Source: Microbacterium sp. (GTDB lineage: Bacteria; Actinomycetota; Actinomycetes; Actinomycetales; Microbacteriaceae). From it: DNA of 64,000 nt. Below, in pieces: positions 9,990-58,366 of this stretch; the stretch's first letter is position 1, and every line of letters begins with the position of its first letter. Under the pieces are notes generated by a model. It had not been told where the DNA came from. It worked only from the letters and a program-made list of their open reading frames with translations, and searched no databases. The position numbers and the translations under genes are program-made. The DNA is taken from NCBI RefSeq assembly GCF_017305435.1, contig NZ_JAFKIP010000003.1:310001-374000 (forward strand), in the 5' to 3' direction.

Positions 9990-10009
9990 GTACGCCGGGC
10001 CCGCGCGAC

Positions 10010-34272: not shown

Positions 34273-34330
34273 CCCGGCCCCCGCGCGGCGGCGCGGCGCG
34301 GGCCGGCGCGACGCGGAGCGGCGCGGGAGC

Positions 34331-34423: not shown

Positions 34424-34474
34424 TGAACACATCGGCGCGGTGACGGGCGGCGGCGACGCGGCACGGCGGCCGGG

Positions 34475-36160: not shown

Positions 36161-36246
36161 GCACGAACTCCGCAGAATGCGCCGAACTCCGCAGCTGATC
36201 GCGGCGACCGGTGCGGAGTTCGCGACAGACTGCGGAGTTCGTGACG
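36161..36246. repeat. Double palindrome E between acyl-CoA oxidase and epimerase genes
   Basis: CGAACTCCGCAG appears twice on the left (about 36164 and 36183) and its inverse TGCGGAGTTCG twice on the right (about 36211 and 36231), making a nested dyad of four copies. No other copy was seen in the window; the arms share GAACTCC with family A. Confidence 0.65.
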
Positions 36247-42541: not shown

Positions 42542-45169
42542 CTACAGTCGCACCACCTCGAGGACGCGGACGATCGCCGCACCTTCGTCGACGGATGCCT
42601 CGAGGTCGACCTCCGCACGGATCCGCCAGTCGTGGTCGCCGGCCGGGTCGTCGATCGTCTGCTCGACGCGCCAGACCCCGCTCGCGGCGGCGGACTCGTC
42701 GATCGCGCACAGCCGGGGCGAGCGGGCGGGCCCGCCGGTCAGGATCTCGTCGTGCTCGTCGTAGTAGGCATCCAGAGCCTCCGGCCAGCGGGCGTCGGGG
42801 TCGAGGGCGACGAGCGCGTCGTCGTCCTGCATGGCGGCGAGCTGGACGCGGCGGAACAGTTCGTTGCGAACGAGGACCGTGAAGGCGCGACGGTTCGCGA
42901 GGATCGATGGCGGTGCCGGTGGGACGACGGGGGCGTCGTCCTCGGGGAGGTGCGCGGCGCCGTCCACGAGCGCCGACCATTCGTCGACGAGACTCGAGTC
43001 GACCTGGCGGACGAGCTCGCCGAGCCACTCGATGATGTCCATGAGCTCGTCCGTGCGCGCTTCGGCGGGCACGGTCTGACGGATCGCGCGATAGGCGTCC
43101 GACAGGTACCGCAGCACGAGGCCCTCGCTGCGCTGCAGCTGGTAGAACGACACGTACTCGGCGAACGACATCGCCCGCTCGAACATGTCGCGGACGACCG
43201 ATTTCGGGCTCAGCGCGAAGTCGCGCACCCACGGCTGACTCGACGCGAAGACCTCGTACGACTGCGCGAGAAGCTCGTCGAGGGGCTTCGGGTAGGAGAT
43301 CGCCTCGAGCAGCGCCATCCGCTCGTCGTACTCGATGCCGTCGCGCTTCATCGCGGCGACCGCCTCTCCCCGCGCCTTGAACTCCTGCTGCGACAGGATC
43401 GCGCGCGGATCGTCGAGGGTCGCCTCGATGATGCTCACGACGTCGAGGGCGTACTGGCCCGTGCCGACGGTCGCGCGTGCGGAACTCCTTCGATCCGCGC
43501 CGGATTCGCCCGGTTCGGGGCATTCCGCGGTACTGGGGTCCGATTCGAAGGAGTTCTGCACGTCGTCGCCGGGATCGTCGGGCGACAGCAGCCCGATCGC
43601 GGCGAGCGCGAACGGCGACAGGGGCTGGTTAAGGGCGAAGTTCGGCTGCAGGTCGATCGTGAGCCGGATGTGTGCGGGCCCCGCACCGTCGCGGACGATC
43701 TCGACGATCCCGGCGTCCACCAGCGTGCGGAAGATCGCGATCGCCCGACGCGCGAGGGCGTACCTCCGCGCACGGGGCTCGTGGTTGTCGAACACGAGCG
43801 AGCGGACGTTCCCGAACACGTCGCCGCCGCGGCCGATGACGTTGATCATCATCGCCGCGGTCAGCTTCAGCTGCGGCACGAGGGGTTCCGGCGGCGCGGC
43901 GATGAGGCGCTCTGACGACCCCTCGCCCCAGTTGACGACCCCCGTCGGCGCCTTCTTCCGTACGATCTTCTTGCGCTTGGCCGCATCATCGCCGGCCTTC
44001 GCCAGCGCGACGGCGTTCTCGATCTCCCACTCGGGCGCCATCACGATCACATTGCCGTACGGGTCGTACCCGGCCCGGCCGGCGCGGCCCGCGACCTGGT
44101 GGAACTCGCGCGCCGTGAGCTGGCGCATCTTCGTGCCGTCGTACTTGCTGAGCGCCGTGATCACGACCGTGCGGATCGGCACGTTGATGCCCACGCCGAG
44201 CGTGTCGGTGCCGCAGATGACCTTCAGCAGTCCCCGCTGCGCGAGCGTCTCGACGAGCCGTCGGTAGCGCGGCAGCATGCCCGCGTGGTGCACGCCGATC
44301 CCGGCACGTACGAGCCGCGACAGCGTCTTGCCGAACCCCGTCGTGAAGCGGAATGCGCCGATCGCCTCGGCGATCTCGTCGCGCTGCGCGCGCGTCGTGA
44401 GCGAGAGGGATGCCAGGGCCTGCGCCCGCTCGAGGGCCGCCGCCTGCGCGAAGTGCACGATGTAGACGGGCACTTCGCGCTCGTCGAGGAGCATCGTCAG
44501 CACTTCGTGCACGGGACGTCGCTCGTAGGAGAAGTGCAGCGGCACGGGGCGTTCCACCCCCGTGACCTCCGCGACGGCGCGGCCGGTGCGGCGGGCGAGG
44601 TCGTCGGCGATCGCCGACACATCTCCGAGCGTCGCGGACATGAGGAGGAACTGCGCGCGGTTCAGCAGGAGCAGCGGCACCTGCCACGCCCAGCCTCGCT
44701 CGGGGTCTCCGTAGAAGTGGAACTCGTCCATCACGACCTGGTCGACCGAGGCATCCGCCCCCTGGCGCAGCGCGACGTTCGCGAGGATCTCGGCCGTGCA
44801 GCAGATGATCGGCGCGTCCGGGTTCACCGACGAGTCGCCCGTGACCATGCCGACGTTCGCGGCGCCGAAGATCTCGACGAGCGCGAAGAACTTCTCGCTC
44901 ACGAGCGCTTTGATCGGGGCCGTGTAATAGGAGCGACCCCCGGATGCCAGGCACGCGGCGTGCGCCGCGATGGCGACGAGCGACTTCCCCGTCCCCGTCG
45001 GAGTGGACAGGATCACGTGCGCTCCCGACACGAGCTCCATGACGGCCTCGTCCTGCGCGGGGTACAGCTCGAGCCCGCGCCCGCCCGCCCAGCGGACGAA
45101 GCCATCGTACGCGGCATCCGCCGACGCCCCCGGCGGTACGGCCTCGATCAGCGGCAGCGACGAACTCAC
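42542..45169 (-). CDS. Ski2-like DEAD/DEAH helicase with DUF3516 domain
   Basis: An 875-aa superfamily 2 helicase of a class frequent in actinobacteria. Helicase motifs: LSTPTGTGKSLVAI (about residue 55), VVMDEFHFYGD (DEFH instead of DExH), LLMSATLGDV, LLKVICGTDTLGVGIN and HQVAGRAGRAGYD. The remainder is DUF3516: YALDVVSIIEATLDDPRAIL and ALLEAISYPKPLDELL. Just before that strand, a ~27-residue segment (VQNSFES... to GADRRSS) is encoded by repeat A copy 2 and looks like an in-frame insertion. RNA processing is the likely role. The GTG start has GAGGG upstream. Confidence 0.9.
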   Translation of the reverse strand: MSSSLPLIEAVPPGASADAAYDGFVRWAGGRGLELYPAQDEAVMELVSGAHVILSTPTGTGKSLVAIAAHAACLASGGRSYYTAPIKALVSEKFFALVEIFGAANVGMVTGDSSVNPDAPIICCTAEILANVALRQGADASVDQVVMDEFHFYGDPERGWAWQVPLLLLNRAQFLLMSATLGDVSAIADDLARRTGRAVAEVTGVERPVPLHFSYERRPVHEVLTMLLDEREVPVYIVHFAQAAALERAQALASLSLTTRAQRDEIAEAIGAFRFTTGFGKTLSRLVRAGIGVHHAGMLPRYRRLVETLAQRGLLKVICGTDTLGVGINVPIRTVVITALSKYDGTKMRQLTAREFHQVAGRAGRAGYDPYGNVIVMAPEWEIENAVALAKAGDDAAKRKKIVRKKAPTGVVNWGEGSSERLIAAPPEPLVPQLKLTAAMMINVIGRGGDVFGNVRSLVFDNHEPRARRYALARRAIAIFRTLVDAGIVEIVRDGAGPAHIRLTIDLQPNFALNQPLSPFALAAIGLLSPDDPGDDVQNSFESDPSTAECPEPGESGADRRSSARATVGTGQYALDVVSIIEATLDDPRAILSQQEFKARGEAVAAMKRDGIEYDERMALLEAISYPKPLDELLAQSYEVFASSQPWVRDFALSPKSVVRDMFERAMSFAEYVSFYQLQRSEGLVLRYLSDAYRAIRQTVPAEARTDELMDIIEWLGELVRQVDSSLVDEWSALVDGAAHLPEDDAPVVPPAPPSILANRRAFTVLVRNELFRRVQLAAMQDDDALVALDPDARWPEALDAYYDEHDEILTGGPARSPRLCAIDESAAASGVWRVEQTIDDPAGDHDWRIRAEVDLEASVDEGAAIVRVLEVVRL
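43481..43560. repeat. Palindromic repeat family A, copy 2 (in frame inside the DUF3516 helicase)
   Basis: Left arm GGAACTCCTTCGATCC (43481-43496) and right arm GATTCGAAGGAGTTC (43542-43556). From AACTCC to CTGCAC it spans 79 bp, exactly as copy 3. On the coding (minus) strand it reads VQNSF...GADRRSS without a stop and in the same phase as copies 3 and 4. Confidence 0.85.
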
Positions 45170-45232
45170 CCCTCGAGTCTGCCCCACCCGCTGCCCGCCC
45201 GCCCCGCCCGTGCGCCGAACGGCGGGCCGGGA

Positions 45233-45238
45233 TAGCGT
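45233..45238 (+). promoter_or_regulatory. Putative -10 of the YjdJ-type acetyltransferase gene (TAGCGT)
   Basis: TAGCGT lies 27 bp before the ATG; GAAGGAGG is the ribosome-binding site in the leader. Confidence 0.35.
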
Positions 45239-45265
45239 GGAGGCATCCCCGACGAAGGAGGCAGC

Positions 45266-45652
45266 ATGACTGACGAGACCCGGAACGACGGCGACATCGA
45301 GGTCGTGCGCAACGATGCGGCCGAGCGGTACGAGATCGTCGTCGACGGCACGGTCGCGGGGTTCACCGAGTTCGCCCCGGATGCGCGCGGCCGCCTCGTC
45401 TTCCCGCACACCGAGGTCGACCCGGCCTTCAGCGGCCGCGGCCTCGCCACGACGCTCGTCCGGGCCGCGATGGAGGATGCCGCCGACCGCGGCGAGACGG
45501 TCGTGCCGGTGTGCCCGTTCGTCGTCACGTACCTGCAGAAGCACGAGGTGCCGGGGTTGAAGATCCACTGGCGCGAGCGCGATGTCGAGGTCGCCGAGCA
45601 CGCGCCGACCATCGAGCGCGGACCGTCCGACGAGGGCATCGGCCGCGGATGA
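45266..45652 (+). CDS. GNAT-like N-acetyltransferase (YjdJ / Acetyltransf_CG type)
   Basis: A 128-aa protein with the compact YjdJ-type GNAT core: RYEIVVDGTVAGFTEF, VFPHTEVDPAFSGRGLATTLV holding the acetyl-CoA loop (GRGLA), and a Cys in VVPVCPFVVTYLQKH which is typical of this group. The family is of unknown substrate. GAAGGAGG precedes the ATG. The pirin gene starts 10 bp after the stop and probably shares the transcript. Confidence 0.9.
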   Translation: MTDETRNDGDIEVVRNDAAERYEIVVDGTVAGFTEFAPDARGRLVFPHTEVDPAFSGRGLATTLVRAAMEDAADRGETVVPVCPFVVTYLQKHEVPGLKIHWRERDVEVAEHAPTIERGPSDEGIGRG

Positions 45653-45662
45653 CGGACCGACG

Positions 45663-46652
45663 ATGACGCGCCTGGACAGCGGGCCTCTCGAGACCGAGAC
45701 GCCCGTGGTCTGCGACGGGCCGCGCGCGCTGCTGCTGGAGGCGCGCGACGTGCCGCTGGGCGGCGTCCGCGGGATGTCGGTGCATCGGAGCCTCCCGCAA
45801 CGGCCGCTCCCGATGGTCGGCGCCTGGTGCTTCCTCGACCGATTCGGGCCGCAGACCGCGAAGATGCGCGTCGAGCCGCATCCTCACATCGGGCTGCAGA
45901 CCGTCACCTGGCCGTTCGTGGGCGACGTGCGCCACCGCGACGTGCTCGGCAGCGACGTCATCGTGCGCCGCGGCGCACTCAACCTCATGACGAGCGGTGC
46001 CGGCATCGCCCACTCGGAGTACTCGGTCGGCGACGACGCCGTCCCCCTCGACGCACTGCAGCTGTGGGTCGCCCTCCCGGAGTCGCGCCGGCACGGCGCG
46101 CCGGCGTTCGAGCGGCACGAGGACCTCCCCGTCGTCGACCTCGGCGGCGGCGCCCGGGCGACCGTCGTCGTCGGCGCGTTCGCCGGCGCGTCCTCCCCCG
46201 CGACGATGTACACGCCGATCGCGGGCGTCGAGGTGCATGTTCCTGCCGCGGCATCCGTCTCGCTGCCGCTGGATCCGGCGTGGGAGTACGCCCTCGTCGG
46301 CGTGAGCGGGGCTCCGGAGGTCGCGACGGATGCCGAGGCATCCACACCGCTCGCCGACCAGAGCCTGCTCTACCTCGGGGTCGGACGCGGGACGATCGAG
46401 GTGCGCGCCGAGCGTGAGACGACGCTGTTCCTCCTCGGCGGCGAGCCGTTCGAGGCCGACATCGTCATGTGGTGGAACTTCGTCGGGCGCACGCACGAGG
46501 AGATCGTGGCGGCGCGGGATGCCTGGGAGGATCCCGCGCGCGCCCTCGAACGATTCGGTCACGTCACGGGCCACGGCGCCGAGCGCATCCCCGCGCCGCC
46601 GCTCCCCGCCGTCCGGCTCACTCAGCGTCGCCGTCCGTCACCCGGCCGCTGA
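45663..46652 (+). CDS. Pirin family protein
   Basis: A 329-aa bicupin. The metal-binding motif is RVEPHPHIGLQTVTW (His-His) with GALNLMTSGAGIAHSEYS, then the second cupin with a C-terminal pirin segment ending FVGRTHEEIVAARDAW. Pirins include quercetinase-like dioxygenases and redox-responsive regulators; activity here is not defined. It follows the YjdJ acetyltransferase closely on the same strand. Confidence 0.92.
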   Translation: MTRLDSGPLETETPVVCDGPRALLLEARDVPLGGVRGMSVHRSLPQRPLPMVGAWCFLDRFGPQTAKMRVEPHPHIGLQTVTWPFVGDVRHRDVLGSDVIVRRGALNLMTSGAGIAHSEYSVGDDAVPLDALQLWVALPESRRHGAPAFERHEDLPVVDLGGGARATVVVGAFAGASSPATMYTPIAGVEVHVPAAASVSLPLDPAWEYALVGVSGAPEVATDAEASTPLADQSLLYLGVGRGTIEVRAERETTLFLLGGEPFEADIVMWWNFVGRTHEEIVAARDAWEDPARALERFGHVTGHGAERIPAPPLPAVRLTQRRRPSPGR

Positions 46653-46706
46653 GCACCCGTCTGCACGATCGCTGTTTTTCACGGCCGGCGCGCCCGCATG
46701 CGCCGG

Positions 46707-46712
46707 TACGCT
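46707..46712 (+). promoter_or_regulatory. Putative leaderless -10 of the first YkoE-like gene (TACGCT)
   Basis: TACGCT lies exactly 6 bp before the GTG at 46719, which I therefore prefer over the ATG at 46698 that would precede the promoter. Confidence 0.4.
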
Positions 46713-46718
46713 GGACCC

Positions 46719-47273
46719 GTGGCCCGGAACCCGATCCTGACGACGCGCGTTCTCCTCGTGTGCGCGGCGATCGGTGTCGCCACGGGCATCGTCGGCGGGA
46801 TCGCAGGCCTGCTGACCCCCGTCGTCCTCGCGGCGATCCCGTTCGCGTACGGGCTGCTGCTGGGTGCGCACGTGCTGCCGGGCATCATCGCGCAGGAAGT
46901 GCTCCGCCTGCCGCTCGTCGCCGTGCTGTCGCACGTCATGGCGGCGATCGTCGCCAGCGCCTTCAACCCGGCCTGGGCGGGGCGGTTCATCGGGACGGCG
47001 CTGCTGTTCGGCGGCATCCAGGAAGGCGTCGCCGCACTCACGCGGTACCGCTCCTGGGGCGCCTGGCGCTTCTTCATCTCGGCGGTCGTCATCGGCGTGC
47101 TGGTGGCGGTCGTCGTCTTCTTCGCGGCGCACATGAGCGTGCTGCCGCTGTGGGCGCAGATCGCGTACCTCGCGCTGTCGGTCCTCGGCCCCGTCGCATG
47201 GACGGCCGTCGGGCTCGGCATCGGCGCCTCGTTGCGACGCGCGGGGGTCGCACGCACCACCGGCGGGCGCTGA
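46719..47273 (+). CDS. ECF transporter S component, YkoE-like (first)
   Basis: A 184-aa membrane protein with about six TM helices. TRVLLVCAAIGVATGIVG, PFAYGLLLGAHVLPGIIAQE and FGGIQEGVAALTRYRSW match the YkoE-type substrate-binding (S) subunits, which in Bacillus serve thiamine/hydroxymethylpyrimidine uptake. It is followed, after repeat D and an iron-box promoter, by the fused ATPase and T subunits. No TPP riboswitch is visible upstream. The substrate is thus open; the neighbours suggest an iron chelate (inference). Confidence 0.78.
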   Translation: MARNPILTTRVLLVCAAIGVATGIVGGIAGLLTPVVLAAIPFAYGLLLGAHVLPGIIAQEVLRLPLVAVLSHVMAAIVASAFNPAWAGRFIGTALLFGGIQEGVAALTRYRSWGAWRFFISAVVIGVLVAVVVFFAAHMSVLPLWAQIAYLALSVLGPVAWTAVGLGIGASLRRAGVARTTGGR

Positions 47274-47300
47274 CCCGGTCCAGCCGCGCGGCAGCCCACC

Positions 47301-47372
47301 GTGTCCCACTTGTGGTTGCTTTCGGGGCGCGGAAACAGCCGTTTGTGGGACATTGTGCGCCCGAAGTGGGAC
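47301..47372. repeat. Dispersed palindromic repeat family D, copy 2
   Basis: GTGTCCCA (47301) and GTGGGACA (about 47345) form the outer dyad, followed by AAGTGGGAC (47364-47372). It shares GGTTGCTTT and CAGCCGTTTGTGGGACAT with copy 1 at 24659 at nearly the same spacing, but has no tandem extension. Confidence 0.8.
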
Positions 47373-47390
47373 GGGCCCGAGGTTGGCTGT

Positions 47391-47409
47391 GCAGGTTAGG
47401 GTCGCCTAA
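47391..47409 (+). promoter_or_regulatory. Putative DtxR/IdeR iron box overlapping the ECF ATPase promoter
   Basis: The 19 bp at this place match the consensus TTAGGTTAGSCTAACCTAA at 14 of 19 positions (AGGTTAGG ... CCTAA in the correct register). A TAAGCT -10-like hexamer (47407-47412) overlaps its end, as expected of an iron-repressed promoter. Confidence 0.6.
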
Positions 47410-47448
47410 GCTGTCCCCGACCCCTTCCTCCGATCAGCTGGGACACCC

Positions 47449-49308
47449 GTGGCCTCGACCGTCTCCGGAGCGGCGACCGTCCGGCAGCCCGGCGACACCG
47501 CACCGCTCCTCCTCGCGGTGCGCGGTGTCGGCATCAGCCACGAAGGCGCGGCGACGCCGACGCCGGCTGCGGCGAGCTTCTCGGTCGCGCGCGGCGAGGT
47601 CGTGCTGCTCCTCGGACCGAGCGGCGCCGGCAAGTCCACACTCGCCCTCGCGCTCAACGGACTCATCCCGCACGCCGTCCCCGCGTCCCTCTCCGGCACG
47701 GTGCTCGTCGACGGACTCGACACACAGCACACTCCGGTCGCGACGCTGTCGACGCGCGTCGGCATGGTCTTCCAGGATCCCGACGCCCAGCTCGTGACCG
47801 GCACTCTCCTCGATGAGGTCGCGTTCGGCCCGGAGAATCTGCGGATGCCGGTGGACGAGGTCCTCTCCCGCAGCGAAGACGCCCTGCGCCGCGTCGGGCT
47901 GTGGGACCGTCGCTCCGAGAACCCCGACCGGCTCTCGGGGGGCGGGCGGCAGCGCCTCGCGATCGCCTGCGCGCTCGCGATGGGGTCGCCGCTGCTCGTG
48001 CTCGACGAGCCGACCGCGAACCTCGACCCGCAGGGCATCGAGGAGGTCTACGCCGCGCTCGAGGAGCTCGTCGCCGCGGGCGACCGCGCGATCGTGCTGA
48101 TCGAGCACAACCTCGACGCCGCCGCCCGCATCACCGATCGCGTCGTCGTGCTCGACCACGACGGTCGCACGCACGCCGACGGCACGGTCGACGAGGTGCT
48201 GCGCGGCCGCGCGGAGGAGCTGCATGCGATGGGAGTCTGGCTGCCGGTCGCGACGCTCGCGGCACTGCGCCTGCGCGCGGCGGGGTGGGCCCTCGATCCG
48301 CTCCCGATCGACCCCGACGAGCTGCGCTCTGCGCTCGAGGCGGCGGGTGCCCCCTCGTCCGCGACCGTTTCCGTCCGAAAAGCAGGGCGGATCGAGACTT
48401 CTGCCCCTGCGGCCGGTGCCGACAGTCGATCCAGCCTGCTTTCCGAACCGCTGATCCGGGTGAGAGGCCTGCGGACGCACCGCGGCAGGGCCGAGATCCT
48501 GCACGGCGTCGACCTCGACGTCCACGCGGGCGAGTTCGTCGCGATCGTCGGTGCCAACGGCGCGGGCAAGACCACCCTGCTGCAGTCGATCGCCGGGGTC
48601 GTGCCCATCCCGCGCGGGCAGGTCACGGTCGCGGGCACCGACATCGCCCGCACCGATCTGCGCACGCTGTCGCGACGGATCGGGTTCGTGTTCCAGAACC
48701 CCGAGCACCAGTTCATCGCGCATACGGTCTTCGACGAGCTCGCCCACGGCCTGCGTCAGCAGCACGTGCCCGACGAGGCGGTGCGCGCCCGCGCGACCGA
48801 CGTGCTGCGCCGGTTCGGGCTCGACGGCAAGGCCGACGTGCACCCGTTCCTCCTCTCCGGCGGGCAGAAGCGACGGCTGTCGGTCGGCACGGCGCTCGTC
48901 ACGGGCGCGCCCGTCCTCGCGCTCGACGAGCCGACCTTCGGTCAGGACCGCGCGCGCGCCGACGAGCTCCTGAGCCTCCTCGACAGCCTGCGCCGAGAGG
49001 GCACGACGGTGCTCGTCGTCACCCACGACATGCAGCTGGTCACGGAGTACGCCGACCGCACGATCGTCGTCGGCGACGGACGGATCCTGCGGGATGCCGC
49101 GACGCACGACGTGTTCGCCGACGACGCCTTCCTGCGGACGGCGGGGCTGCGGCAGCCGCCGCTGCGCCGGGCGTTCTCGGGGATGACGCGGCACCCGCAG
49201 CTCGCGGGCGTCACGCGCCTCGCCGACCTGCCGAACCCCGATCCCACCGCCACCGCGGCGCCGACCGTCACCCCGGCGCCGACCGTCACCCCGGAGGCCG
49301 CACCGTGA
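47449..49308 (+). CDS. ECF transporter fused double ATPase (EcfA-EcfA')
   Basis: A 619-aa protein that carries both ECF ATPases in one chain. Domain 1 (about 20-260) has Walker A LGPSGAGKSTLALAL, signature LSGGGRQRLAIA and LLVLDEPTANLDPQG. Domain 2 (about 340-560) has VGANGAGKTTLLQSI, LSGGQKRRLSVGTALV and LALDEPTFGQDRARAD. The linker (VRKAGRIET...LLSEP) is encoded by repeat B copy 2. The tail is Thr/Pro/Ala-rich. It overlaps the T-component gene by GTGA. The promoter bears an iron box. Confidence 0.93.
   Translation: MASTVSGAATVRQPGDTAPLLLAVRGVGISHEGAATPTPAAASFSVARGEVVLLLGPSGAGKSTLALALNGLIPHAVPASLSGTVLVDGLDTQHTPVATLSTRVGMVFQDPDAQLVTGTLLDEVAFGPENLRMPVDEVLSRSEDALRRVGLWDRRSENPDRLSGGGRQRLAIACALAMGSPLLVLDEPTANLDPQGIEEVYAALEELVAAGDRAIVLIEHNLDAAARITDRVVVLDHDGRTHADGTVDEVLRGRAEELHAMGVWLPVATLAALRLRAAGWALDPLPIDPDELRSALEAAGAPSSATVSVRKAGRIETSAPAAGADSRSSLLSEPLIRVRGLRTHRGRAEILHGVDLDVHAGEFVAIVGANGAGKTTLLQSIAGVVPIPRGQVTVAGTDIARTDLRTLSRRIGFVFQNPEHQFIAHTVFDELAHGLRQQHVPDEAVRARATDVLRRFGLDGKADVHPFLLSGGQKRRLSVGTALVTGAPVLALDEPTFGQDRARADELLSLLDSLRREGTTVLVVTHDMQLVTEYADRTIVVGDGRILRDAATHDVFADDAFLRTAGLRQPPLRRAFSGMTRHPQLAGVTRLADLPNPDPTATAAPTVTPAPTVTPEAAP
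48373..48448. repeat. Palindromic repeat family B, copy 2 (in frame inside the fused ATPase)
   Basis: Left arm GTCCGAAAAGCAGGGCGGAT (48373) and right arm ATCCAGCCTGCTTTCCGAAC (to 48448) are inverted with few differences. It occupies the linker between the two ATPase domains and reads through in frame. The same arms occur at 51591-51670. Confidence 0.8.
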
Positions 49309-50114
49309 CCACTGCGACCTTCGATCCCTACGCCCGCGTCGAGGCGCCCGGCCGGTTCCTCTACGCGCTGAACCCGCTCGCGAAGCTCCTCGCGCCGCTG
49401 CCCGCGATGCTCCTCCTCGTCTTCGTGCGCGACCTCGCGACGCCCCTCGCCTTCCTCGTGATCGCGTACCTCGTCCTCCTCGCGGGCGCCCGGCTCACGG
49501 CGCGCATCGCGCTCGTGCTGGCGGTCGCGATCCCCGGCGCGGCGCTCGTCCTCGGCCTCGGCATGTCGGTGTGGACGGATGCCTCCCGTGTCGACACGTC
49601 CGTGACGGTGCTGCAGATCGGGGGCTGGTCGCTGTACGGCGGAGCCCTCGCGGTGGGAATGGCGACCGGCGTGCGGCTCGCGGCGATCGTGAGCCTCGCC
49701 CTCCTCGCCGGCCTCACGACGAACGGTCCCGATCTCGTGCGCGCGACGGTGCAGCAGCTGCGGGTGCCGTACCGGATCGGCTACACGGCCCTCGCCGCCT
49801 TCCGGTTCGTGCCGCGCTTCGGGTACGAGCTCGACGTCATCCGGCAGGCGCATCGCGTGCGCGGGGCGCACGGCGGGCGCGGCCCGTTCGCGGCGCTCGC
49901 GCGCTGGTGGGGCTACATCGTGCCGCTCCTGGCCGGTGCGATCCGGCACGCCGAGCGGGTCGCGCTCGCGATGGACGCCCGCGCCTTCGGCGCCCACCCC
50001 GACCGCACCGAGCGCCACCTCGTGCCGTGGCGCGTTCGGGACACCGTGTTCGTCGCCCTGTTCTGGATCCTGAGCGCCGGCATCCTCGTCGCCCTCTTCC
50101 CCTGGACCCTGTAG
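49305..50114 (+). CDS. ecfT: ECF transporter T component (EcfT)
   Basis: A 269-aa transmembrane coupling protein with 5-6 TM helices: LNPLAKLLAPLPAMLLLVFV, ALAVGMATGVRLAAIVSLAL and others. The cytosolic coupling region has LRVPYRIGYTALAAFRFVPR and the Ala-Arg-Ala motif in ALAMDARAFGAHPDR, the groove-contacting element of EcfT. It overlaps the ATPase gene by 4 bp and is followed 51 bp later by the siderophore-interacting protein. Confidence 0.92.
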   Translation: MTTATFDPYARVEAPGRFLYALNPLAKLLAPLPAMLLLVFVRDLATPLAFLVIAYLVLLAGARLTARIALVLAVAIPGAALVLGLGMSVWTDASRVDTSVTVLQIGGWSLYGGALAVGMATGVRLAAIVSLALLAGLTTNGPDLVRATVQQLRVPYRIGYTALAAFRFVPRFGYELDVIRQAHRVRGAHGGRGPFAALARWWGYIVPLLAGAIRHAERVALAMDARAFGAHPDRTERHLVPWRVRDTVFVALFWILSAGILVALFPWTL

Positions 50115-50165
50115 CGGGCGCTGTCCCCGCCCCCGGCGCCCCTTCCCCCTCGAAAGGACCCTCGC

Positions 50166-51041: not shown

Positions 51042-51610
51042 TGGGCAAGGTCACGACGGCGTGTCTGCTCACATGCGCCGCGATCGGCGTCGCGGGAGGA
51101 ATCGTCCTGGCGGTCGGATGGTGGCTCTCCGTCGCCCTCTTCGCGACGGTGCCCTTCGCCTCGGTCGCGATCGCGGGGCTCTGGGTCATGCCCGCTGTGA
51201 TCGCGCTGCGGCTCCTGCAGCGCCCGTTCGCGGGCCTGCTCGTCGGCCTCATCTCCGGCCTCGTGCTCGCACCGTTCTACACCGCGAGCGCGATCCTGAC
51301 GACGCTGTTCTGGTCGTTCTTCCCCGAGCTGCCGTTCCTCGTGACGCTGTACCGGCGCTGGAGCACGTGGCTGCACTATGCGGGAGCGCTCGCGATGGGT
51401 GTCTCCTACCCGCTGCTCGCGGCGCAGTCGTTCGACCTGTGGGCGATGGCGCCCGGTCTCGTCGTGGGGTTCATCGCGCTGTGCGCGGCATCCTGCGTCG
51501 CGGGGACGTTCCTCGCGATCGTGATCGCCGACCGCCTGCGCGCGGCCGGGGTCGCCCGACTCGCCCGCCGGCGACCCGCCGAGGTTCCGGGCGTCGCGAA
51601 AGCAGGCTGA
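51041..51610 (+). CDS. ECF transporter S component, YkoE-like (second)
   Basis: A 189-aa protein with about six TM helices, a divergent relative of the first YkoE-like gene (shared: LLTCAAIGVAGGIV near the start and RLRAAGVARLARR near the end). The ATG overlaps the SIP stop by 1 bp (TGATG). The last codons (KAG, stop) fall in the arm of repeat B copy 1. Two S components for one ATPase-T pair could bring two substrates or a heteromeric S unit (inference). Confidence 0.7.
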   Translation: MGKVTTACLLTCAAIGVAGGIVLAVGWWLSVALFATVPFASVAIAGLWVMPAVIALRLLQRPFAGLLVGLISGLVLAPFYTASAILTTLFWSFFPELPFLVTLYRRWSTWLHYAGALAMGVSYPLLAAQSFDLWAMAPGLVVGFIALCAASCVAGTFLAIVIADRLRAAGVARLARRRPAEVPGVAKAG

Positions 51611-51670
51611 ACCGACCGTTCCGCGCCTCGCGGCGCCCGACCCGCTCGATCCAGCCTGCTTTCGAGACGC
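51591..51670. repeat. Palindromic repeat family B, copy 1 (supplies a stop codon)
   Basis: Left arm GCGTCGCGAAAGCAGGCTGA (51591) and right arm TCCAGCCTGCTTTCGAGACG (to 51670) are inverted. The second S-component gene ends inside the left arm (GCA GGC TGA). It lies between convergent stops and may also serve as a hairpin terminator. Confidence 0.8.
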
Positions 51671-51719
51671 GGGCGGCGGTGCAGGCGGTGCGCGCGGCGC
51701 GGGTCAGCGGGTCAGCGGG

Positions 51720-52883
51720 TCAGCGCTTGCCGACGATCTGGCGCGAGACGAGGTCGCGCATGATCTCGTTCGTGCCGCCGTAGATGCGGTGGACGCGGGC
51801 GTCGAGGTAGGCGCGGGCGATCGGGTACTCGGTGATGTAGCCGTAGCCGCCGTGCAGCTGGACGCCGATGTCGAGGAGCTCCGCCTCGCGGTCGGTCGCC
51901 CAGAACTTGACCTTCGCCGCCTCCTCCGCCGTCAGCTTCTCGTCCGCGTAGAGCTCCATCGCGCGGTCGATGTAGGCCCACATGACGTCGACCGTCGTCG
52001 CCATGTCGGCGAGACGGAAGCGGGTGTTCTGGAAGTCGGCGATCCGCTCGCCGAACGCCTCGCGGCTGATGACGTAGTCGCGCGTCCAGGCGAAGGCAGC
52101 CTCGCCGGCGGCAGCCGCGGCGACCCCGATCGACAGGCGCTCGAGGGGCAGGTTCATCATGAGCTGGATGAAGCCGAGGCCCTCTTTGCCGCCGATGAGG
52201 TTCGCCTCGGGCACGAACACATCGGTGAAACTGAGCTCGGCGGTGTCCCAGCCGTGGAAGCCCATCTTCTCGAGCTTCTTCGAGTGATCGAACCCCTCCA
52301 TCCCGTCTTCGAGGATCAGCAGGCTGAAGGCATCCGGGCGATTCCCCTCGCCGGTCTTGACGAAGGTGACGACGATATCGGCGGTCTTGCCGGAGGAGAT
52401 GAAGGTCTTCGCGCCGTTGACGAGGTAGCCGCCGTCGACCTTCTTCGCCGTCGTCTTGATGCCCCGCAGGTCGCTGCCGGCGCCGGGTTCGGTCATCGCG
52501 AGGGCGCCGAGGATCTCGCCGGTCGCCATGCCCGGCAGCCACTTCTCCTTCTGCTCCTGCGTGCCCATGTGCACGATGTAGGGAACGGCGAGGTCGTCTT
52601 GGATGCCGAGGGCGCCGGCGAGCGACCCCTGACCCGCGCCGATCACCTCTTCGAGCACGATCGCGCGGAAGCGGTAGTCCTGCAGCATGCCCGCGCCGCC
52701 GAACTCCTCGGGAACGGAGAGGCCGATGATGCCGGCGTCCCCGGCGGCGCGCATCGTGGCGCGGTCGACCTCGCCGTCGGCCTCCCACTGCTTGCGCTTC
52801 TCCTCGGTGGCGTAGCGCTTCACGAACTCCTTGACGACGTCGCGGAACGCCTCGTGGTCCTCGTCGTAGATGTTGCGCTCCAT
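51720..52883 (-). CDS. Acyl-CoA dehydrogenase
   Basis: A 387-aa flavoprotein. ALAMTEPGAGSDLRGIKTTA and VNGAKTFISSGKTADI form the substrate/FAD signature, FIQLMMNLPLERLSIGVAA and YVISREAFGERIADFQN follow, and the catalytic Glu-region ends QLHGGYGYITEYPIAR, RIYGGTNEIMRDLVSR. It makes enoyl-CoA and passes electrons to ETF. GGAAGGCAGG precedes the ATG. It is monocistronic, convergent with the ECF operon. Confidence 0.95.
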   Translation of the reverse strand: MERNIYDEDHEAFRDVVKEFVKRYATEEKRKQWEADGEVDRATMRAAGDAGIIGLSVPEEFGGAGMLQDYRFRAIVLEEVIGAGQGSLAGALGIQDDLAVPYIVHMGTQEQKEKWLPGMATGEILGALAMTEPGAGSDLRGIKTTAKKVDGGYLVNGAKTFISSGKTADIVVTFVKTGEGNRPDAFSLLILEDGMEGFDHSKKLEKMGFHGWDTAELSFTDVFVPEANLIGGKEGLGFIQLMMNLPLERLSIGVAAAAAGEAAFAWTRDYVISREAFGERIADFQNTRFRLADMATTVDVMWAYIDRAMELYADEKLTAEEAAKVKFWATDREAELLDIGVQLHGGYGYITEYPIARAYLDARVHRIYGGTNEIMRDLVSRQIVGKR

Positions 52884-52989
52884 GCTGCGCCTGCCTTCCG
52901 TGTCTCGTCGTCGAGCCTGACGTGGGGGGACGATGTCCCGGCATCCATGGTACTGGGTTTCACCGGTCGTGGCATCCGGTCGCGGGCTG

Positions 52990-54084
52990 TCAGTCGACGT
53001 AGTCGGGCGCGGGAGGAAGGCCGAAGAAGTCCTCGAGGGTGTGGAATCCGCCGTCGTGATACACCTGCGCGAGCTCCGGGCCGATGTAGCGCAGATGCCA
53101 AGGCTCGGCCTGGTACCCGGTGATGGCCGTGTAGCCGTCCTCGTAGCGCACGATGAAGCCGAACCGCCACGCGTTCGCGGCGACCCAGGCGCCCTGCGCC
53201 GTGCCGCCGAACGACTCGATCGCCCCGCAGCCGCCGTCGCAGGCTGCGACGTCCGTCGCGAGACCCGTCTGGTGCTCACTGAAGCCGGGGCGGGCGCTCT
53301 GCAGGTCGGCGGACTCCCGCCCGAGCGAGTTCACGTAGCCGTTGTAGGTGCGTGTCTGCGAGTCGAACGACCGGAAGGCGCTGTTGAGGCCGATCGCGCC
53401 GACGCCCTCGGCCTGCGCGGCGGCGACCAGCGCCGTCAGGGCATCGGCCGCGGCAGGGCGCAGCCGCCCGTCGACGGTGCGCTGCATGTCGGCAGGGGCG
53501 ACGACGGTGTCGGGCTCCCATTCGAGCGGGCTCAGGGGACGCTGCTTGTTGACGACGACCCACTCCCGCACGGGATCGGCGAGGTTCACGCACGGCGCCG
53601 ACCCCGTGGCCACGAGGTCGCGGAAGGCGGTCGCGCCGCCCAAGGCGGCGATCACGTCGGCATCCGACCCCTGGGCCAACGCCGTCGACACCGCGGGGTC
53701 GTCGCACCCCGCCGCCACGACGGTCGCCGCGGACTGCGCGGGCACGGGCAGGGAGGTCACCGCGGGAACGGGGTCCACGCGCGTCTGCTGCGTGGCATCC
53801 GCCGTGGTCGACCCGCCGCGCCCGCCGAGGGCGACCGCTGCCGCGACGGCGGCGATGAGCAGGATCGCCGCGGCGGCGATGACGAGCAGCCGCGTGCGCG
53901 GCCGGGCGACGCGCGCTCGGCGGGTGCCGTCCGCGAGGGCGCCCGCCGCGGCTCCCGCGGACACGGCCTGCGCGGCTGTGCGCGCGCTCGGCTCCGCCCC
54001 CGGCGTCGCCGCGGCATCCGCATCGGCACGCTCGCGCTCGGCGCGGAGCGCGCGTCGAGACGGCAACGGCTCGGGAGGGATCAC
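52990..54084 (-). CDS. VanY-type D-alanyl-D-alanine carboxypeptidase (M15), membrane-anchored
   Basis: A 364-aa protein. A basic cytosolic N-terminus (about 60 residues) and one TM helix (about 66-88) anchor it; the distal ~130 residues are an M15B peptidase with NSAFRSFDSQTRTYN, SEHQTGLATDVAA (zinc His/Asp) and EPWHLRYIGP (the last His). It trims D-Ala from peptidoglycan stems. Between TM and enzyme is a ~120-residue region with spaced Cys of unknown role. The GTG follows CAGAAT by 6 bp. Confidence 0.92.
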   Translation of the reverse strand: MIPPEPLPSRRALRAERERADADAAATPGAEPSARTAAQAVSAGAAAGALADGTRRARVARPRTRLLVIAAAAILLIAAVAAAVALGGRGGSTTADATQQTRVDPVPAVTSLPVPAQSAATVVAAGCDDPAVSTALAQGSDADVIAALGGATAFRDLVATGSAPCVNLADPVREWVVVNKQRPLSPLEWEPDTVVAPADMQRTVDGRLRPAAADALTALVAAAQAEGVGAIGLNSAFRSFDSQTRTYNGYVNSLGRESADLQSARPGFSEHQTGLATDVAACDGGCGAIESFGGTAQGAWVAANAWRFGFIVRYEDGYTAITGYQAEPWHLRYIGPELAQVYHDGGFHTLEDFFGLPPAPDYVD

Positions 54085-54090
54085 CCACCC

Positions 54091-54096
54091 ATTCTG
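54091..54096 (-). promoter_or_regulatory. Putative leaderless -10 of the VanY-type gene (CAGAAT)
   Basis: CAGAAT lies exactly 6 bp before the GTG start. Confidence 0.35.
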
Positions 54097-54191
54097 ACGT
54101 GCGCAGCCGTGACCTCGCCGAGAGCGATCATCTCTCCATCTTCACGAAGCACCCCCTTGCGCGATTTTCGAATCTCTGTTCCACTGATCGT

Positions 54192-55247
54192 ATGCGGTGG
54201 CACGGACAGACTCTCGAACAGACGGACGCTGCGGCGCTCCCGGGTCTCGAGGCGTTGGGTGCACTCGTGCGCTCGGTCCGCACACCCGCCTTCCAGGGGA
54301 TGACCTTCCACGAGGTGCGCGCGAAGTCGGCGCTGAACCATGTGCCACGCGGGTCGGCGATGCCGTTCGACTGGACGGTCAACCCGTATCGGGGCTGCAC
54401 TCATGCGTGCGCCTATTGCTTCGCCCGCAACACGCACACCTACCTGGATCTCGACGCGGGCCAGGACTTCGATCAGCAGATCATCGTGAAGACGAACGTC
54501 GGCGACGTGCTGCGACGCGAGCTCGCGAAGCCGACCTGGGCCCGTGAACCGGTCGCGCTCGGCACGAACACCGACCCCTACCAGCGTGCCGAGGGGCGCT
54601 ACGCGCTCATGCCCGGGATCATCGCGGCCCTCACCGACAGCGGAACCCCGTTCTCGATCCTGACGAAGGGCACGCTCCTCCGCCGCGACCTGCCGATGCT
54701 GACGGATGCCGCGGCATCCGTCCCCGTCTCGATCGCGATGTCGATCGCGGTCTTCGACGACGCGCTGCAGCAGTCCCTCGAGCCGGGCACACCCACGTCC
54801 GCGGCGCGGCTCGCGACGGTGCGGGCGGCCGCCGATGCCGGGTTCCGCGTGACGGTGTTCCTGATGCCGATCCTGCCTCACCTCACCGACTCGACGCGGG
54901 CAGTGGACGACGCCCTCGCCCGTATCCGCGCCGCGGGGGCGGCCCGGGTCGTGTTCGGCGCGCTGCATCTGCGGCCCGGTGCGAAGGAGTGGTTCTGGGA
55001 CTGGCTCTCCCGTACCCGACCCGAGCTCGTGCCGCTGTACCGCGGGCTGTACCCCGGGGCATCCGCCTACGCGCCGGACGGCTACCGCAAGGAACTCGTC
55101 GCGCGCGTCCGCCCGCTCCTGCGCCGGCACCGGCTCACCGGAGGCGCCGAGGAGGACGTCGAGAGCCGGCCGCCGCGCCCGGGGCCCGTCCGGACGACGG
55201 GTCGAGCGAAGGTGGGTGCCGGGGCGGGCGAGGCCCGGCTGTTCTGA
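54192..55247 (+). CDS. Rv2578c family radical SAM protein
   Basis: A 351-aa radical SAM protein. VNPYRGCTHACAYCFAR contains the CxxxCxxC [4Fe-4S] motif (about residue 70), followed by ALGTNTDPYQRAEGRY and PFSILTKGTLLRRD, which mark the Rv2578c/spore photoproduct-lyase-like group. The physiological reaction is unknown. The start ATG at 54192 puts the Rv2578c N-terminal helix (MRWHGQTLE) first. It is divergent from the VanY gene and converges on GNAT. Confidence 0.92.
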   Translation: MRWHGQTLEQTDAAALPGLEALGALVRSVRTPAFQGMTFHEVRAKSALNHVPRGSAMPFDWTVNPYRGCTHACAYCFARNTHTYLDLDAGQDFDQQIIVKTNVGDVLRRELAKPTWAREPVALGTNTDPYQRAEGRYALMPGIIAALTDSGTPFSILTKGTLLRRDLPMLTDAAASVPVSIAMSIAVFDDALQQSLEPGTPTSAARLATVRAAADAGFRVTVFLMPILPHLTDSTRAVDDALARIRAAGAARVVFGALHLRPGAKEWFWDWLSRTRPELVPLYRGLYPGASAYAPDGYRKELVARVRPLLRRHRLTGGAEEDVESRPPRPGPVRTTGRAKVGAGAGEARLF

Positions 55248-55258
55248 CGGTCGGGGGC

Positions 55259-55759
55259 TCAGCCGTCGAGGTCCTGCGCCCAGACCCCGACGCGCAAAAC
55301 CGTGTCCCGGTAGGGGAGCTTGGCCTCACCGCGGCGGAGGAACCCGGATGCCGCGCACAGGCGGCTCGACGGGAGGTTGTCCACCGCGGGAAACGCCACC
55401 AGCGTGCGGTGCCCGGCACGCGCGCGAGCATCCGCGATCGCGAGGGCCACGGCGCGCGCGGCGATGCCCTGGCCCTGGGCATCCGGCACGACGAACCATC
55501 CCATCTCGGTGACCGGAGCACCCTCCCACTCAGACGGCCACCAGTTCACCCCGCCCACGCCGACACCGACACCGCCAGACTCGATCGCCTGCACGCCGTA
55601 GGCAGGATCGCGCACCAGCCGGAGGTACTTCTCATGGCGGGCCACGACGGCATCCGGCGCTTCGGGGCCGCCCAGGTGTGCCGTCATCTCGGGCGCATTC
55701 GCGGCGACGAGGAGCGGCAGGTCATCGTCGCGCCACGGGCGCAGGCGGATCTCGATCAC
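55259..55759 (-). CDS. GNAT family N-acetyltransferase
   Basis: A 166-aa RimJ/RimL-like GNAT: RLRPWRDDDLPLLVAANAP, TEMGWFVVPDAQGQGIAARAVALA with the acetyl-CoA loop (QGQGIA), and SRLCAASGFLRRGE. The substrate is unknown. I chose the GTG at 55759, preceded by GGGAGGA, over a longer version without RBS. It converges with the radical SAM gene and lies after palindrome H. Confidence 0.9.
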   Translation of the reverse strand: MIEIRLRPWRDDDLPLLVAANAPEMTAHLGGPEAPDAVVARHEKYLRLVRDPAYGVQAIESGGVGVGVGGVNWWPSEWEGAPVTEMGWFVVPDAQGQGIAARAVALAIADARARAGHRTLVAFPAVDNLPSSRLCAASGFLRRGEAKLPYRDTVLRVGVWAQDLDG

Positions 55760-55806
55760 GGTCCGATTGTCCTCCCGGCATCCGACACGATCAGTGTTCC
55801 CCCACG

Positions 55807-55868
55807 CCCGAGAACGCACAACAGCACCGATCCCAGTCGGGAACGGTGCTGTTGTGTGTTCTCGCGGG
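55807..55868. repeat. Near-perfect 62-bp palindrome H after the DEAD-box gene
   Basis: Arms CCCGAGAACGCACAACAGCA (55807) and TGCTGTTGTGTGTTCTCGCG (to 55867) pair over ~28 bp with a 4-nt loop. It lies 9 bp after the stop (55877, minus) and could be its terminator, without U tract. No other copy was seen in the window. Confidence 0.8.
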
Positions 55869-55876
55869 CAGGGGCG

Positions 55877-58051
55877 CTACGCGGGGACCACCTGACGTCC
55901 GGCCAGTTCCTCGATGAGGTCGTCTCCCGGGCGGGCATCCTCGAAGGGCGCGTCGATCTCGGCCCGATCGAGCATCTCGGTCATGCGGCGGCGACGCTGG
56001 CGGGTGATGAGGGTCACGACCGTGCCGCTGCGCCCGGCCCGCCCGGTACGGCCCGACCGGTGCAGGTACGTCTTGTACTCGTCGGGGGCATCCGCCTGGA
56101 TCACCAGATCGATGTCGTCGACGTGGATGCCGCGCGCCGCGACATCCGTCGCCACCAGCACATCGACCCGCCCCGAGGTCAGCCGCTCGAGGTTGCGCGT
56201 GCGCTTGGCCTGGTTGAGGTCGCCGTGCAGCGCGACCGCCTTGATGCCGGCGTCGTCGAACTGCTCGGCGAGCATCTCGGCGTACGCGCGGGTGCGGGCG
56301 AAGACGAGCGTCTTGCCGCTGCGGTCGACGAGGCTCGTGAGGATCTCGGCCTTGTCGCGATGGTCGATGACGAGCACGCGATGGTCGATCGTGCCGGAAT
56401 CCTGGTCCTCACCGGCGACCTCGTAGACGGCCGGCTCGACGAGGAACTCGTCGACGAGCGCGGCGACCTCGCGGTCGAGCGTCGCGGAGAAGAGGAGCTT
56501 CTGCGCCTCCGCCGGCACGAGGCGCAGAAGGCGCTGCATCGGCTCGAGGAAGCCGAGCTCCGACATGTGGTCGGCTTCGTCGAGAACGACGATGCGGATC
56601 TCCGAGAGATCGAGCTTGCCCTGCTCCTGCAGGTCTTCAATGCGGCCCGGTGTGCCGATCACGATGTCGACGCCCTTCTTGAGCGCGCCGACCTGGCGCG
56701 CCTGCGGCACACCGCCGTACACCTGCGTCGTGAAGAGGCCCACGCTCCGTGCGATCGGCTGGATCGTGCGGTCGATCTGCAGGGCGAGCTCACGCGTCGG
56801 GGCGAGGATCAGCGCCTTCGGGCTGCGGCCGAACTCGCGACGCTTGCCCGCCTGGCTGCGCAGGATCGATTCGACCAGCGGAGCGCCGAACGCGATCGTC
56901 TTGCCCGATCCGGTGCGTCCCCGCGCGAGGACGTCCTTGCCCTCGAGGATCGGCGCGATGGTCGCTGCCTGGATCGGGAACGGCGAAGCCGCCCCGAGTC
57001 CCTCGAGCGCGCGGACGATGTTGTCGCCGAGCCCCAGGGCGCCGAACGTCACGCCCGCGACCTCTTCGGCCTGGATGGCCTCGGCCTGGAGCTTCTCGTG
57101 CACGGTGTCGGCGTGCTCCTCGTAGGCCTTGCGCTTCGCGGCATCCTTCGCGTCGGCGTGCCAATCCGAGCGGTTCCCGGCATAGGCCGGGCGGTCGTCC
57201 CGACGGGGACGGTCGTCGTACGACCTGGCCGGGCGGGCGTCCCGACGCGGGCGGTCGTCGTACGACCGGGTCGGGCGGTCGTCCCGACGGGGACGGTCAT
57301 CGCGGGCGGGGCGGTCATAACTCCTCCGATCCGCGCCGTTCTGGCCGGAATCACGCCGATTCGGGCGTTCCGAGCCCGGATCGAAGGAGTTCTGCACACG
57401 CCGGTCGCCGTACCGGTGGTCATCGCGGCGCGGACGGTCGTCGACGGCGCGGCGGGGGCGGTCGTCGCGGAACGACGGGCGGGCGTCGCCGAAGGTCCGA
57501 CGGTCGTCGCGTGGCTGACGCTCGCCGCGGGGACGGTCGTCGTACGAGCGGGCGGGACGGTCGGAACTCCGGCGATCCGAGCCGTTCTGGCCGAAATCAC
57601 GCCGGTTCGGGCGCTCCCGTCCCGAATCGGAGGAGTTTTGTGCACGCGCATCGTCACGCGCCGGCCGAGCATCCCGGCGGGGGCGGTCGTCGTACGACCG
57701 AGCGGGGCGGTCGTCGTACGACCGGGCAGGACGATCGTCGTACGACCGCGCAGGCCGGTCATCCCGACGCGGACGGTCCTCGCGCCCGGCGGAGTGCGAA
57801 CGGATGCCGCGGGCCTCGTCGCGCCCCGCGCGCTCCTGCGCGTTCCAGCGCTGCTTCTTGGCGGGAGCACCGGCGTCGGTGGACGCCTCCGGCCGATAGC
57901 CGCGGTGATTCGGGCTCTTCGAGCCGGGCGTGCCGGCGGACGACTGGCCCGGGCGACGCTTGGCGTCCTGGTAGGAGGTCTTCTTCGCGCCGTAACGCGG
58001 CTCGAAACTCTGCGCGCGGCTCCCGCCGGCGGGCTTCTTGTTCTTGGGCAT
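55877..58051 (-). CDS. DEAD-box RNA helicase with long Arg/Asp-rich N-terminal region
   Basis: A 724-aa RNA helicase. The C-terminal ~430 residues are a complete DEAD-box core: PFPIQAATI, GRTGSGKTIAF, APTRELALQ, VLDEADHMSE, FSATLD, LHGDLNQAKRTRNL, ATDVAARGIHVD and HRSGRTGRAG. The first ~290 residues are disordered and repetitive, with many SYDDRPAR- and RPRRDD-type units and two segments encoded by repeat A copies 3 and 4. Such tails bind RNA and may drive condensation. The ATG has AGAAGGA 8 nt upstream. Palindrome H follows the stop. Confidence 0.93.
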   Translation of the reverse strand: MPKNKKPAGGSRAQSFEPRYGAKKTSYQDAKRRPGQSSAGTPGSKSPNHRGYRPEASTDAGAPAKKQRWNAQERAGRDEARGIRSHSAGREDRPRRDDRPARSYDDRPARSYDDRPARSYDDRPRRDARPARDDARAQNSSDSGRERPNRRDFGQNGSDRRSSDRPARSYDDRPRGERQPRDDRRTFGDARPSFRDDRPRRAVDDRPRRDDHRYGDRRVQNSFDPGSERPNRRDSGQNGADRRSYDRPARDDRPRRDDRPTRSYDDRPRRDARPARSYDDRPRRDDRPAYAGNRSDWHADAKDAAKRKAYEEHADTVHEKLQAEAIQAEEVAGVTFGALGLGDNIVRALEGLGAASPFPIQAATIAPILEGKDVLARGRTGSGKTIAFGAPLVESILRSQAGKRREFGRSPKALILAPTRELALQIDRTIQPIARSVGLFTTQVYGGVPQARQVGALKKGVDIVIGTPGRIEDLQEQGKLDLSEIRIVVLDEADHMSELGFLEPMQRLLRLVPAEAQKLLFSATLDREVAALVDEFLVEPAVYEVAGEDQDSGTIDHRVLVIDHRDKAEILTSLVDRSGKTLVFARTRAYAEMLAEQFDDAGIKAVALHGDLNQAKRTRNLERLTSGRVDVLVATDVAARGIHVDDIDLVIQADAPDEYKTYLHRSGRTGRAGRSGTVVTLITRQRRRRMTEMLDRAEIDAPFEDARPGDDLIEELAGRQVVPA
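57319..57396. repeat. Palindromic repeat family A, copy 3 (in frame inside the DEAD-box gene)
   Basis: Left arm AACTCCTCCGATCC (57319-57332) and right arm GGATCGAAGGAGTT (57378-57391), 79 bp to CTGCAC. It encodes VQNSFDPGSERPNRR ... GADRRSY on the minus strand, and is about 84% identical by eye to copy 4. Confidence 0.85.
57563..57644. repeat. Palindromic repeat family A, copy 4 (in frame inside the DEAD-box gene)
   Basis: Left arm GGAACTCCGGCGATCC (57563-57578) and right arm GAATCGGAGGAGTT (57624-57637). It encodes AQNSSDSGRERPNRR ... GSDRRSS in the same phase as copy 3, 244 bp away. Confidence 0.85.
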
Positions 58052-58366
58052 CGGGTGTCCTTCTGGGTTGCTTGCACGAGAACAGCACCCACCCATGCAG
58101 CGAGATCCGCGACAGCGGAGAGGAGCGAGGCGGGCTGCCCGGGCGTTCATCGGCCGGGGCCATTCAGTGATGGTTCATGCGCGCCGATCGGCGCTCACCA
58201 TCGGCCCCTGACTCACAAAGCACTCACGAACCCATCCGCGCACACGCGCGGCGTCCAGAGCCGACCGCACGAGTCTACCGGGCGAGTCTGGGAGACTCCC
58301 TCCGCCCAGCCCGCCGCCACGCACGGGGGTGACTTCCGCCCTCCGCGCCGGCCCTACACTGACCCC
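58052..58366. other. 315-bp divergent intergenic region (DEAD-box / DUF998)
   Basis: It holds the DUF998 promoter at the right end and, on the minus strand, a possible -10 TAGACT (58272-58277) giving the DEAD-box gene a leader of about 220 nt, plus a short GGGAGACTCCC dyad. No coding gene or known RNA motif was recognised. Confidence 0.45.
58355..58360 (+). promoter_or_regulatory. Putative leaderless -10 of the DUF998 gene (TACACT)
   Basis: TACACT lies exactly 6 bp before the ATG at 58367. Confidence 0.5.

Follow-up and report, generated by a model that had tools for sequence, protein, structure and literature searches.

Dispersed paired inverted repeats in Microbacterium as probable sites of an AbiEi- and Vsr-like nuclease

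The stretch of DNA described here, referred to throughout as the window, comprises 64,000 nucleotides of Microbacterium sp. (NCBI RefSeq assembly GCF_017305435.1, contig NZ_JAFKIP010000003.1, positions 310,001 to 374,000 of the forward strand) and carries several copies of a short palindromic element, which lie both between genes and, in frame, within two unrelated helicase genes (Table 1). We describe the anatomy and distribution of this element, together with a nuclease-like protein whose gene commonly lies between two copies, and weigh the evidence that the copies are probably the paired recognition sites of that protein. The four AACTCC..GGAGTT copies of the main family, at 22758, 43483, 57319 and 57565, lie where an initial annotation had placed them, one of its starts being right and three of the four off by 2–4 base pairs (bp). 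Its distance of 79 bp from AACTCC to CTGCAC holds in the second and third copies, and its estimate by eye of about 84% identity between the third and fourth is borne out by 62 identical positions among 73 (85%); the second and third agree at 48 of 73 positions. As it had also proposed, the three genic copies share one reading phase, QNS..DRRS. Both copies in the DEAD-box gene fall within one imperfect tandem repeat of approximately 246 bp.

Table 1. Elements of the window and the two genes that contain copies.
Feature	Position in window	Strand	Description
Second-family element, arms GCGTACCGTATTCAGTCT	9894..9995		Span 102; one arm exact, the other with 5 mismatches
Element	22758..22842		Span 85 bp; arms AACTCCTCCGATCC / AACTCCTCCGAACC; intergenic
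Second-family element, arms GCGTACCGTATTCAGTCT	34329..34430		Span 102; one arm exact, the other with 4 mismatches
Element, other arm type AACTCCGCAG (GCAG-type)	36166..36239		Span 74; inner inverted repeat; appears intergenic
DUF3516 DEAD-type helicase gene, one copy inside	42542..45121	-	Pfam DUF3516, E 2e-185; start codon not fixed
Element	43483..43555		Span 73; arms GTGCGGAACTCCTTCGATCC / GTGCAGAACTCCTTCGAATC; in frame within DUF3516 helicase
DEAD-box RNA helicase gene, two copies inside	55877..58150	-	Pfam DEAD-box confirmed
Element	57319..57391		Span 73; inner arm letters TCCGATCC / TTCGATCC; in frame, DEAD-box helicase N-terminal linker
Element	57565..57637		Span 73; inner arm letters GGCGATCC / TCCGATTC; in frame, same DEAD-box linker as 57319..57391

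Each element consists of two inverted arms of approximately 20 bp (six letters, AACTCC, four further letters and then often ATCC) around an interior particular to the copy. The span, defined as the distance from AACTCC to GGAGTT, is fixed at 73–75 or 85–86 bp, while 63–64 and 95–96 bp also occur beside some nuclease genes; among 39 listed copies of the 42 counted with spans of 67–97 allowed, it was 73 (10 copies), 74 (18), 75 (1), 85 (1) and 86 (9). Pooling spans over all loci would carry the bias of the search patterns, so the pooled values are given no weight in the case for phasing. The spans are roughly whole numbers of helical turns and differ in steps of 10–12 bp, which suggests that the two arms have to lie on one side of the helix and hence that the element is a double-stranded DNA site, probably for a protein dimer. 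The AACTCC core is common across Microbacterium, the adjacent letters varying by species, and the interiors of different copies are unrelated, apart from weak symmetric motifs (GGCC roughly ten positions off centre among elements of span 73/74, and CCGCG..CGCGG among those of span 86). One genome holds similar elements in tandem arrays that repeat every 151 and 127 bp (G624:C1:221353-221728 and 375970-376297; G, C and L numbers denote our genomes, contigs and loci).

That the family exceeds chance follows from the genome-wide count of arms and from their pairing, and not from enrichment of single arms within the window, where 16 matches at up to 3 mismatches were equalled by 6 of 100 shuffles and so are not clearly beyond chance. 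Over the whole genome, single arms at up to 2 mismatches matched 39 times on one strand and 40 on the other, where a reversed control matched 2 and 4 times, and the paired-arm pattern gave 6 copies against none. The genome (3.5 Mb in 10 contigs) holds 25 AACTCC..GGAGTT pairs with spans of 64–94, a raw count that includes at least one Shine-Dalgarno pair; their spans are 73 (3), 74 (12), 75 (2), 85 (1) and 86 (4), the others being 68, 71 and 81. Hence the search of the arms across the genome that the initial annotation had called for did recover further copies. At least three arm types are present, namely TYCG (the window copies), GGTG/ACCG and GCAG; four more elements of the GCAG type occur elsewhere in the genome, and like arms are seen in G566 and G578.

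Across 295 genomes of the genus, the TYCGA form was found in 11, with none for a reversed-pattern control, and the generic form with a span of 73–74 in 184, at up to 60 copies. Named Microbacterium records matching the TYCGA pattern were M. paulum, M. aurantiacum, M. ureisolvens, M. trichothecenolyticum and M. allomyrinae. A search of the family with TYCGA arms alone returned 1 genome in 398, which is misleading because other species carry other arm letters. The generic AACTCC..GGAGTT pattern also matches divergent Shine-Dalgarno pairs at LacI-type promoters, and is unfit for counting copies one by one. Of the seven matches under non-Microbacterium names in the TYCGA search of named records, six have other spans (68, 69, 83, 83, 87 and 90) and look like chance. 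The seventh, a contig named as a Microthrixaceae metagenome-assembled genome (L082, G648:C454:6432-6505), carries a Microbacterium-type element of span 74, positioned as in a genome of the genus, and it looks as if the name is wrong or the bin mixed. The viral contigs searched for the element gave no matches. In two genomes (L213 in G406 and L219 in G587) other palindromes, with arms GCGTGAGGGGTCAAT and GCGTGAGTCGCCAGGATTTGTCGCC, were noted by eye where relatives have AACTCC elements, and these are perhaps the families of further nucleases.

The protein associated with the elements has approximately 290 residues and joins an AbiEi-like winged-helix half, predicted to bind DNA, to a half resembling Vsr and EDxHD homing endonucleases, in which a Vsr-like catalytic fold with E, D, H and D residues is present; six catalytic-type residues are invariant in all 78 homologues. 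Pfam MTES_1575 matched 23 of 23 proteins at E<=0.1, the four scores shown being 29.7–35.8 bits and below the cut-off of 38.2, and DUF559 matched 22 of 23, with shown scores of 19–24.6 around its cut-off of 20.6; NCBIfam offered no name for the protein. We collected 50 nuclease loci, comprising the 30 top homologue matches and 20 others. The gene lies between two complete elements at 37 of these, has an element on one side at 7 and none at 6 (24, 4 and 2 for the top 30 alone; 43, 7 and 6 of 56 if six loci chosen for their elements are included, L071 being the same locus as L153), and it does not split its own target site. The inner flanking elements are 1003–1181 bp apart. As a control, 540 kb of three genomes contained 17 elements, and none of 6000 random placements was flanked on both sides. 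Two of the element-free loci (L140 and L262) have inverted repeats common to both flanks, with other letters or another span.

The association extends beyond the genus. A protein profile found homologues in 124 of 199 genomes of the family, belonging to 62 of 85 genera, and 14 of 30 family-wide loci shared inverted repeats between their two flanks, against 60 of 870 mismatched pairs; 12 of those 14 are outside the genus of the window. For most of these 14 loci the left and right spans match to within a base; at L280 and L283 the difference is about ten. The same test within Microbacterium (30 of 52 loci, compared with 522 of 2652 mismatched pairs) is blunt because the species share the AACTCC core.

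In many species the nuclease cassette occupies a single locus, following an adenosine deaminase gene. We searched 25 genomes besides this one for the nuclease within 1.1–1.8 kb after that anchor, of which 24 could be placed (G439 has no anchor gene). With this genome counted in, the 13 genomes that have the nuclease there hold 8–28 copies of span 73/74, against 0–4 in the 12 where it is absent from that place. These counts are genome-wide and take in the elements of the cassette itself; in G596, one of the 12, a lone element lies at the site. Among all 295 genomes, the 85 with a homologue at E<=1e-80 have a median of 10 copies and the other 210 a median of 1. Arm letters at the adenosine deaminase locus vary between species, so that specificity would change in place. 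Furthermore, over the 50 loci the arms co-vary with the protein (Mantel tests, uncorrected for kinship): the outer six letters correlate with the winged helix at r 0.35, and the inner four with residues 60–120 at r 0.33 and with the winged helix at r 0.27, against 0.13 (outer six) and 0.22 (inner four) for the nuclease half. In nine genomes with both, the arms in the DUF3516 linker resemble those at the nuclease locus (likeness 0.65 against 0.46 when permuted, p 0.0025).

A second nuclease-repeat pair is present in the same genome. A paralogue of the nuclease (G000:C9:235501-236319, 47% identical) has arms GCGTACCGTATTCAGTCT on both sides, with spans of 102 and 103, and dispersed copies of span 102 with like arms occur at two places in the window (Table 1) and at C7:236642, the latter with one mismatch in each arm. 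Finding two exact arms in the window exceeds chance expectation, the shuffle mean being 0.03 at up to 3 mismatches and none of 100 shuffles reaching two. A third paralogue, at C5:151150, has no such flanking repeats.

A simple codon-usage gene caller put 30 of 48 copies between genes, 8 overlapping a gene end and 10 inside genes. The DUF3516 gene of the window was compared with its nearest orthologues, 30 sequences in all when it is counted among them. In 12 the corresponding linker holds an AACTCC element, always with span 73; in 8 the linker is short, at 35–40 residues, and has none; in the other 10 it is longer, and its arms are decayed, different or absent. The helicase segment is not common to all orthologues, and neither of the outcomes that the initial annotation had named as refuting its proposal was seen. 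The DEAD-box linker carries peptides of this kind in G566, G578 and G528 also, so both linkers appear to be old or repeatedly used places at which copies are tolerated. They are disordered, and a span of 73 with the outer arm ends (approximately 87 bp) would keep the frame; helicases as a general target did not hold up, and another copy lies in kdpB. At the intergenic site 22758 a relative (G578) is approximately 95 bp shorter. At one place in G462 and G624, and in G495 with the right flank alone shared, the span of 74 is kept and the interiors diverge, while G416 and like relatives have only a short intergenic gap. Presence at orthologous places is patchy.

From these observations we consider it probable that a resident nuclease recognises the copies as its paired sites, and that together they make up a dispersed family similar in arrangement to REPINs and RAYTs with another enzyme. 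Its best supported parts are that the arms would be the binding half-sites of a dimer and that the nuclease would be needed to keep the copies. In the mechanism we propose, the N-terminal halves of a protein dimer would contact the two arms from a single face of the helix, placing the nuclease halves near the centre; cutting or nicking in or near the elements, followed by repair, would create, spread, renew and keep copies, and the arms of a genome would co-evolve with its nuclease protein. The invariance of the catalytic residues speaks for cutting playing a part, and the drifting interiors, together with the kdpB copy described below, favour upkeep of the site.

Several observations weigh against this reading. 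The abundance contrasts are uncorrected for kinship of the genomes; G554 has a close nuclease homologue elsewhere but one copy of the element, and G463, G492 and G522 have many copies with no close homologue. Elements are lacking at 6 of the 50 nuclease loci (L130, L140, L251, L260, L261 and L262). In the genome of the window, the cassette at C9:253 kb (nuclease at C9:253248-254090) has GGTG/ACCG arms, unlike the TYCG copies, and no nuclease belonging to the TYCG arms was found; DUF3516-linker arms also differ from nuclease-locus arms in G455 and G565, with a like mismatch in G405. The mode of birth is likewise difficult. Insertion at the DUF3516 linker is not cleanly read because two element-free relatives differ from it in net length by 63 and 69 bp, where 87 would be expected. 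In kdpB (C7:466350-466435) the arms stand in frame around native coding sequence (the SGGTPLVV region), the interior aligning to the armless gene of G578; from our reading of the alignment, the left arm replaces native letters and there are some 24 extra bases on the right side. Whole-block insertion therefore does not account for every copy, and we see no single mechanism for both this case and the sites that differ in length. Fresh copy-and-paste of a whole element was not seen, apart from tandem duplicates, and interiors within a genome are unrelated.

The main rival, which we judge unlikely, is that the protein is a regulator or chromosome organiser with a nuclease fold, its elements being operators or anchors kept by selection on the host and not by drive; sites would be born by mutation around existing DNA and would die when the protein is lost. 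AbiEi itself regulates its own gene through paired 23-bp inverted repeats (PMC7319586), and the same explanation would suit the span of 74 kept at one place in G462, G624 and G495 while interiors diverge, the kdpB arms around native DNA and a nuclease gene that stays at one locus in many species. However, six catalytic-type residues without exception in 78 homologues are more than a regulator should need, and the placement of 10 of 48 copies inside genes and 30 between them, with the patchy presence at orthologous places, also weighs against this rival.

Classical miniature inverted-repeat transposable elements (MITEs) or insertion-sequence remnants, in which the arms would be the terminal inverted repeats left by a transposon of DDE or HUH type and the nuclease gene a passenger, are a quite improbable source. 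Short palindromic units, tandem clusters and presence or absence at orthologous intergenic places would be expected of them, but the interiors are not common to copies, and genes of this one nuclease family are flanked from one species to the next, in other genera also. The mobilising enzyme of RAYT or TnpA-REP type suggested by the initial annotation was not found, Y1 transposase (Y1_Tnp, PF01797) being absent from all 10 genomes with 8–60 copies while the control search was positive in 5 of 14; DDE transposases were not searched for. More improbable again is that the elements are RNA hairpins whose fold is what is conserved, such as terminators or small RNAs. The arms do pair, several copies start at a stop codon, and RNAalifold predicted a few central pairs on the other strand of the 86-bp set, but in the 73- and 74-bp sets, which are small, it found no shared fold beyond the arms, mirror pairing of interiors is near background, and spans in helical steps and copies inside coding sequence do not suit this explanation. 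By eye, some interiors in G498, G467 and G529 hold ordinary-looking terminator hairpins. Finally, although some genomes have copies and no close homologue, that these are old palindromes without a partner, near the nuclease by accident, is scarcely credible given the flanked loci against the random placements and the full separation of the 13 and 12 genomes.

To return to the nuclease and its recognition sites, a stronger form of this reading is possible, and we put it forward tentatively: that Microbacteriaceae harbour a new class of repeat-nuclease partnership, in which helically phased paired sites of homing-type nucleases would be born and rewritten in place, even around native DNA, with arms that change as the nuclease does and interiors that drift. 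If true, short patches of sequence are written at a measured distance in living chromosomes. The contrast in copy number with and without the gene at its locus, and the availability of enzyme-site pairs of varied specificity, make the upkeep of repeats and their co-evolution directly testable. The association also suggests a role for a group of AbiEi-Vsr proteins found in most of the sampled genera of the family, and the case shows how repeats end as extra residues in conserved helicases.

Rickettsia palindromic elements are palindromic inserts that occur in frame in unrelated genes, the whole element being conserved between copies. The initial annotation compared the window copies to these; the dispersed palindromic family, with in-frame copies in two unrelated helicases, stands, and in this it is like the Rickettsia elements, but likeness to that class as a whole is not supported, since most copies here are intergenic, interiors are not conserved, no shared fold was found beyond the arms, and a nuclease gene is flanked by these arms too. 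REP and REPIN families are linked with transposases of the RAYT type, which are single-copy, vertically inherited and thought to create and renew REPIN copies, and the long persistence of such repeats is an open question. REPINs have two conserved inverted arms and a less conserved spacer, with 71 bp between arm starts in one class (PMC3116915), and the elements here resemble the REPIN-RAYT system in these arms and spacer, in similar size, tandem clusters and dispersal, and in repeats beside the enzyme gene. They differ in that the enzyme is an AbiEi and Vsr/EDxHD protein and no HUH transposase, in spans that step by helical turns, and in interiors unrelated between copies. GTAG- and CGTC-tagged REP families (PMC3733652) are likewise short dispersed palindromes; no such tag was seen at the element ends here, and the available main text of that study mentions neither Actinobacteria nor Microbacterium.

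Unlike the EDxHD homing endonuclease I-Bth0305I (PMC3943268; structure 3r3p), the protein has an AbiEi-like DNA-binding half and many dispersed sites per genome, its gene lying between two whole sites and not splitting one. Unlike the AbiEi antitoxin (PMC7319586; structure 6y8q), its AbiEi-like half is fused to a nuclease and its sites are genome-wide; the gap between repeats is 3 bp for AbiEi and 13 bp for Rv2827c, compared to approximately 35–68 bp in the elements here. The open-licence literature, seen mostly at abstract level, yielded no description of this repeat-nuclease system. We rate the arrangement as a new class, REPIN-RAYT-like, with its defining enzyme replaced by an unrelated one whose putative function is read from sequence; an unrelated enzyme seems to have reached the arrangement of REPINs and RAYTs, in a group with many sequenced species.
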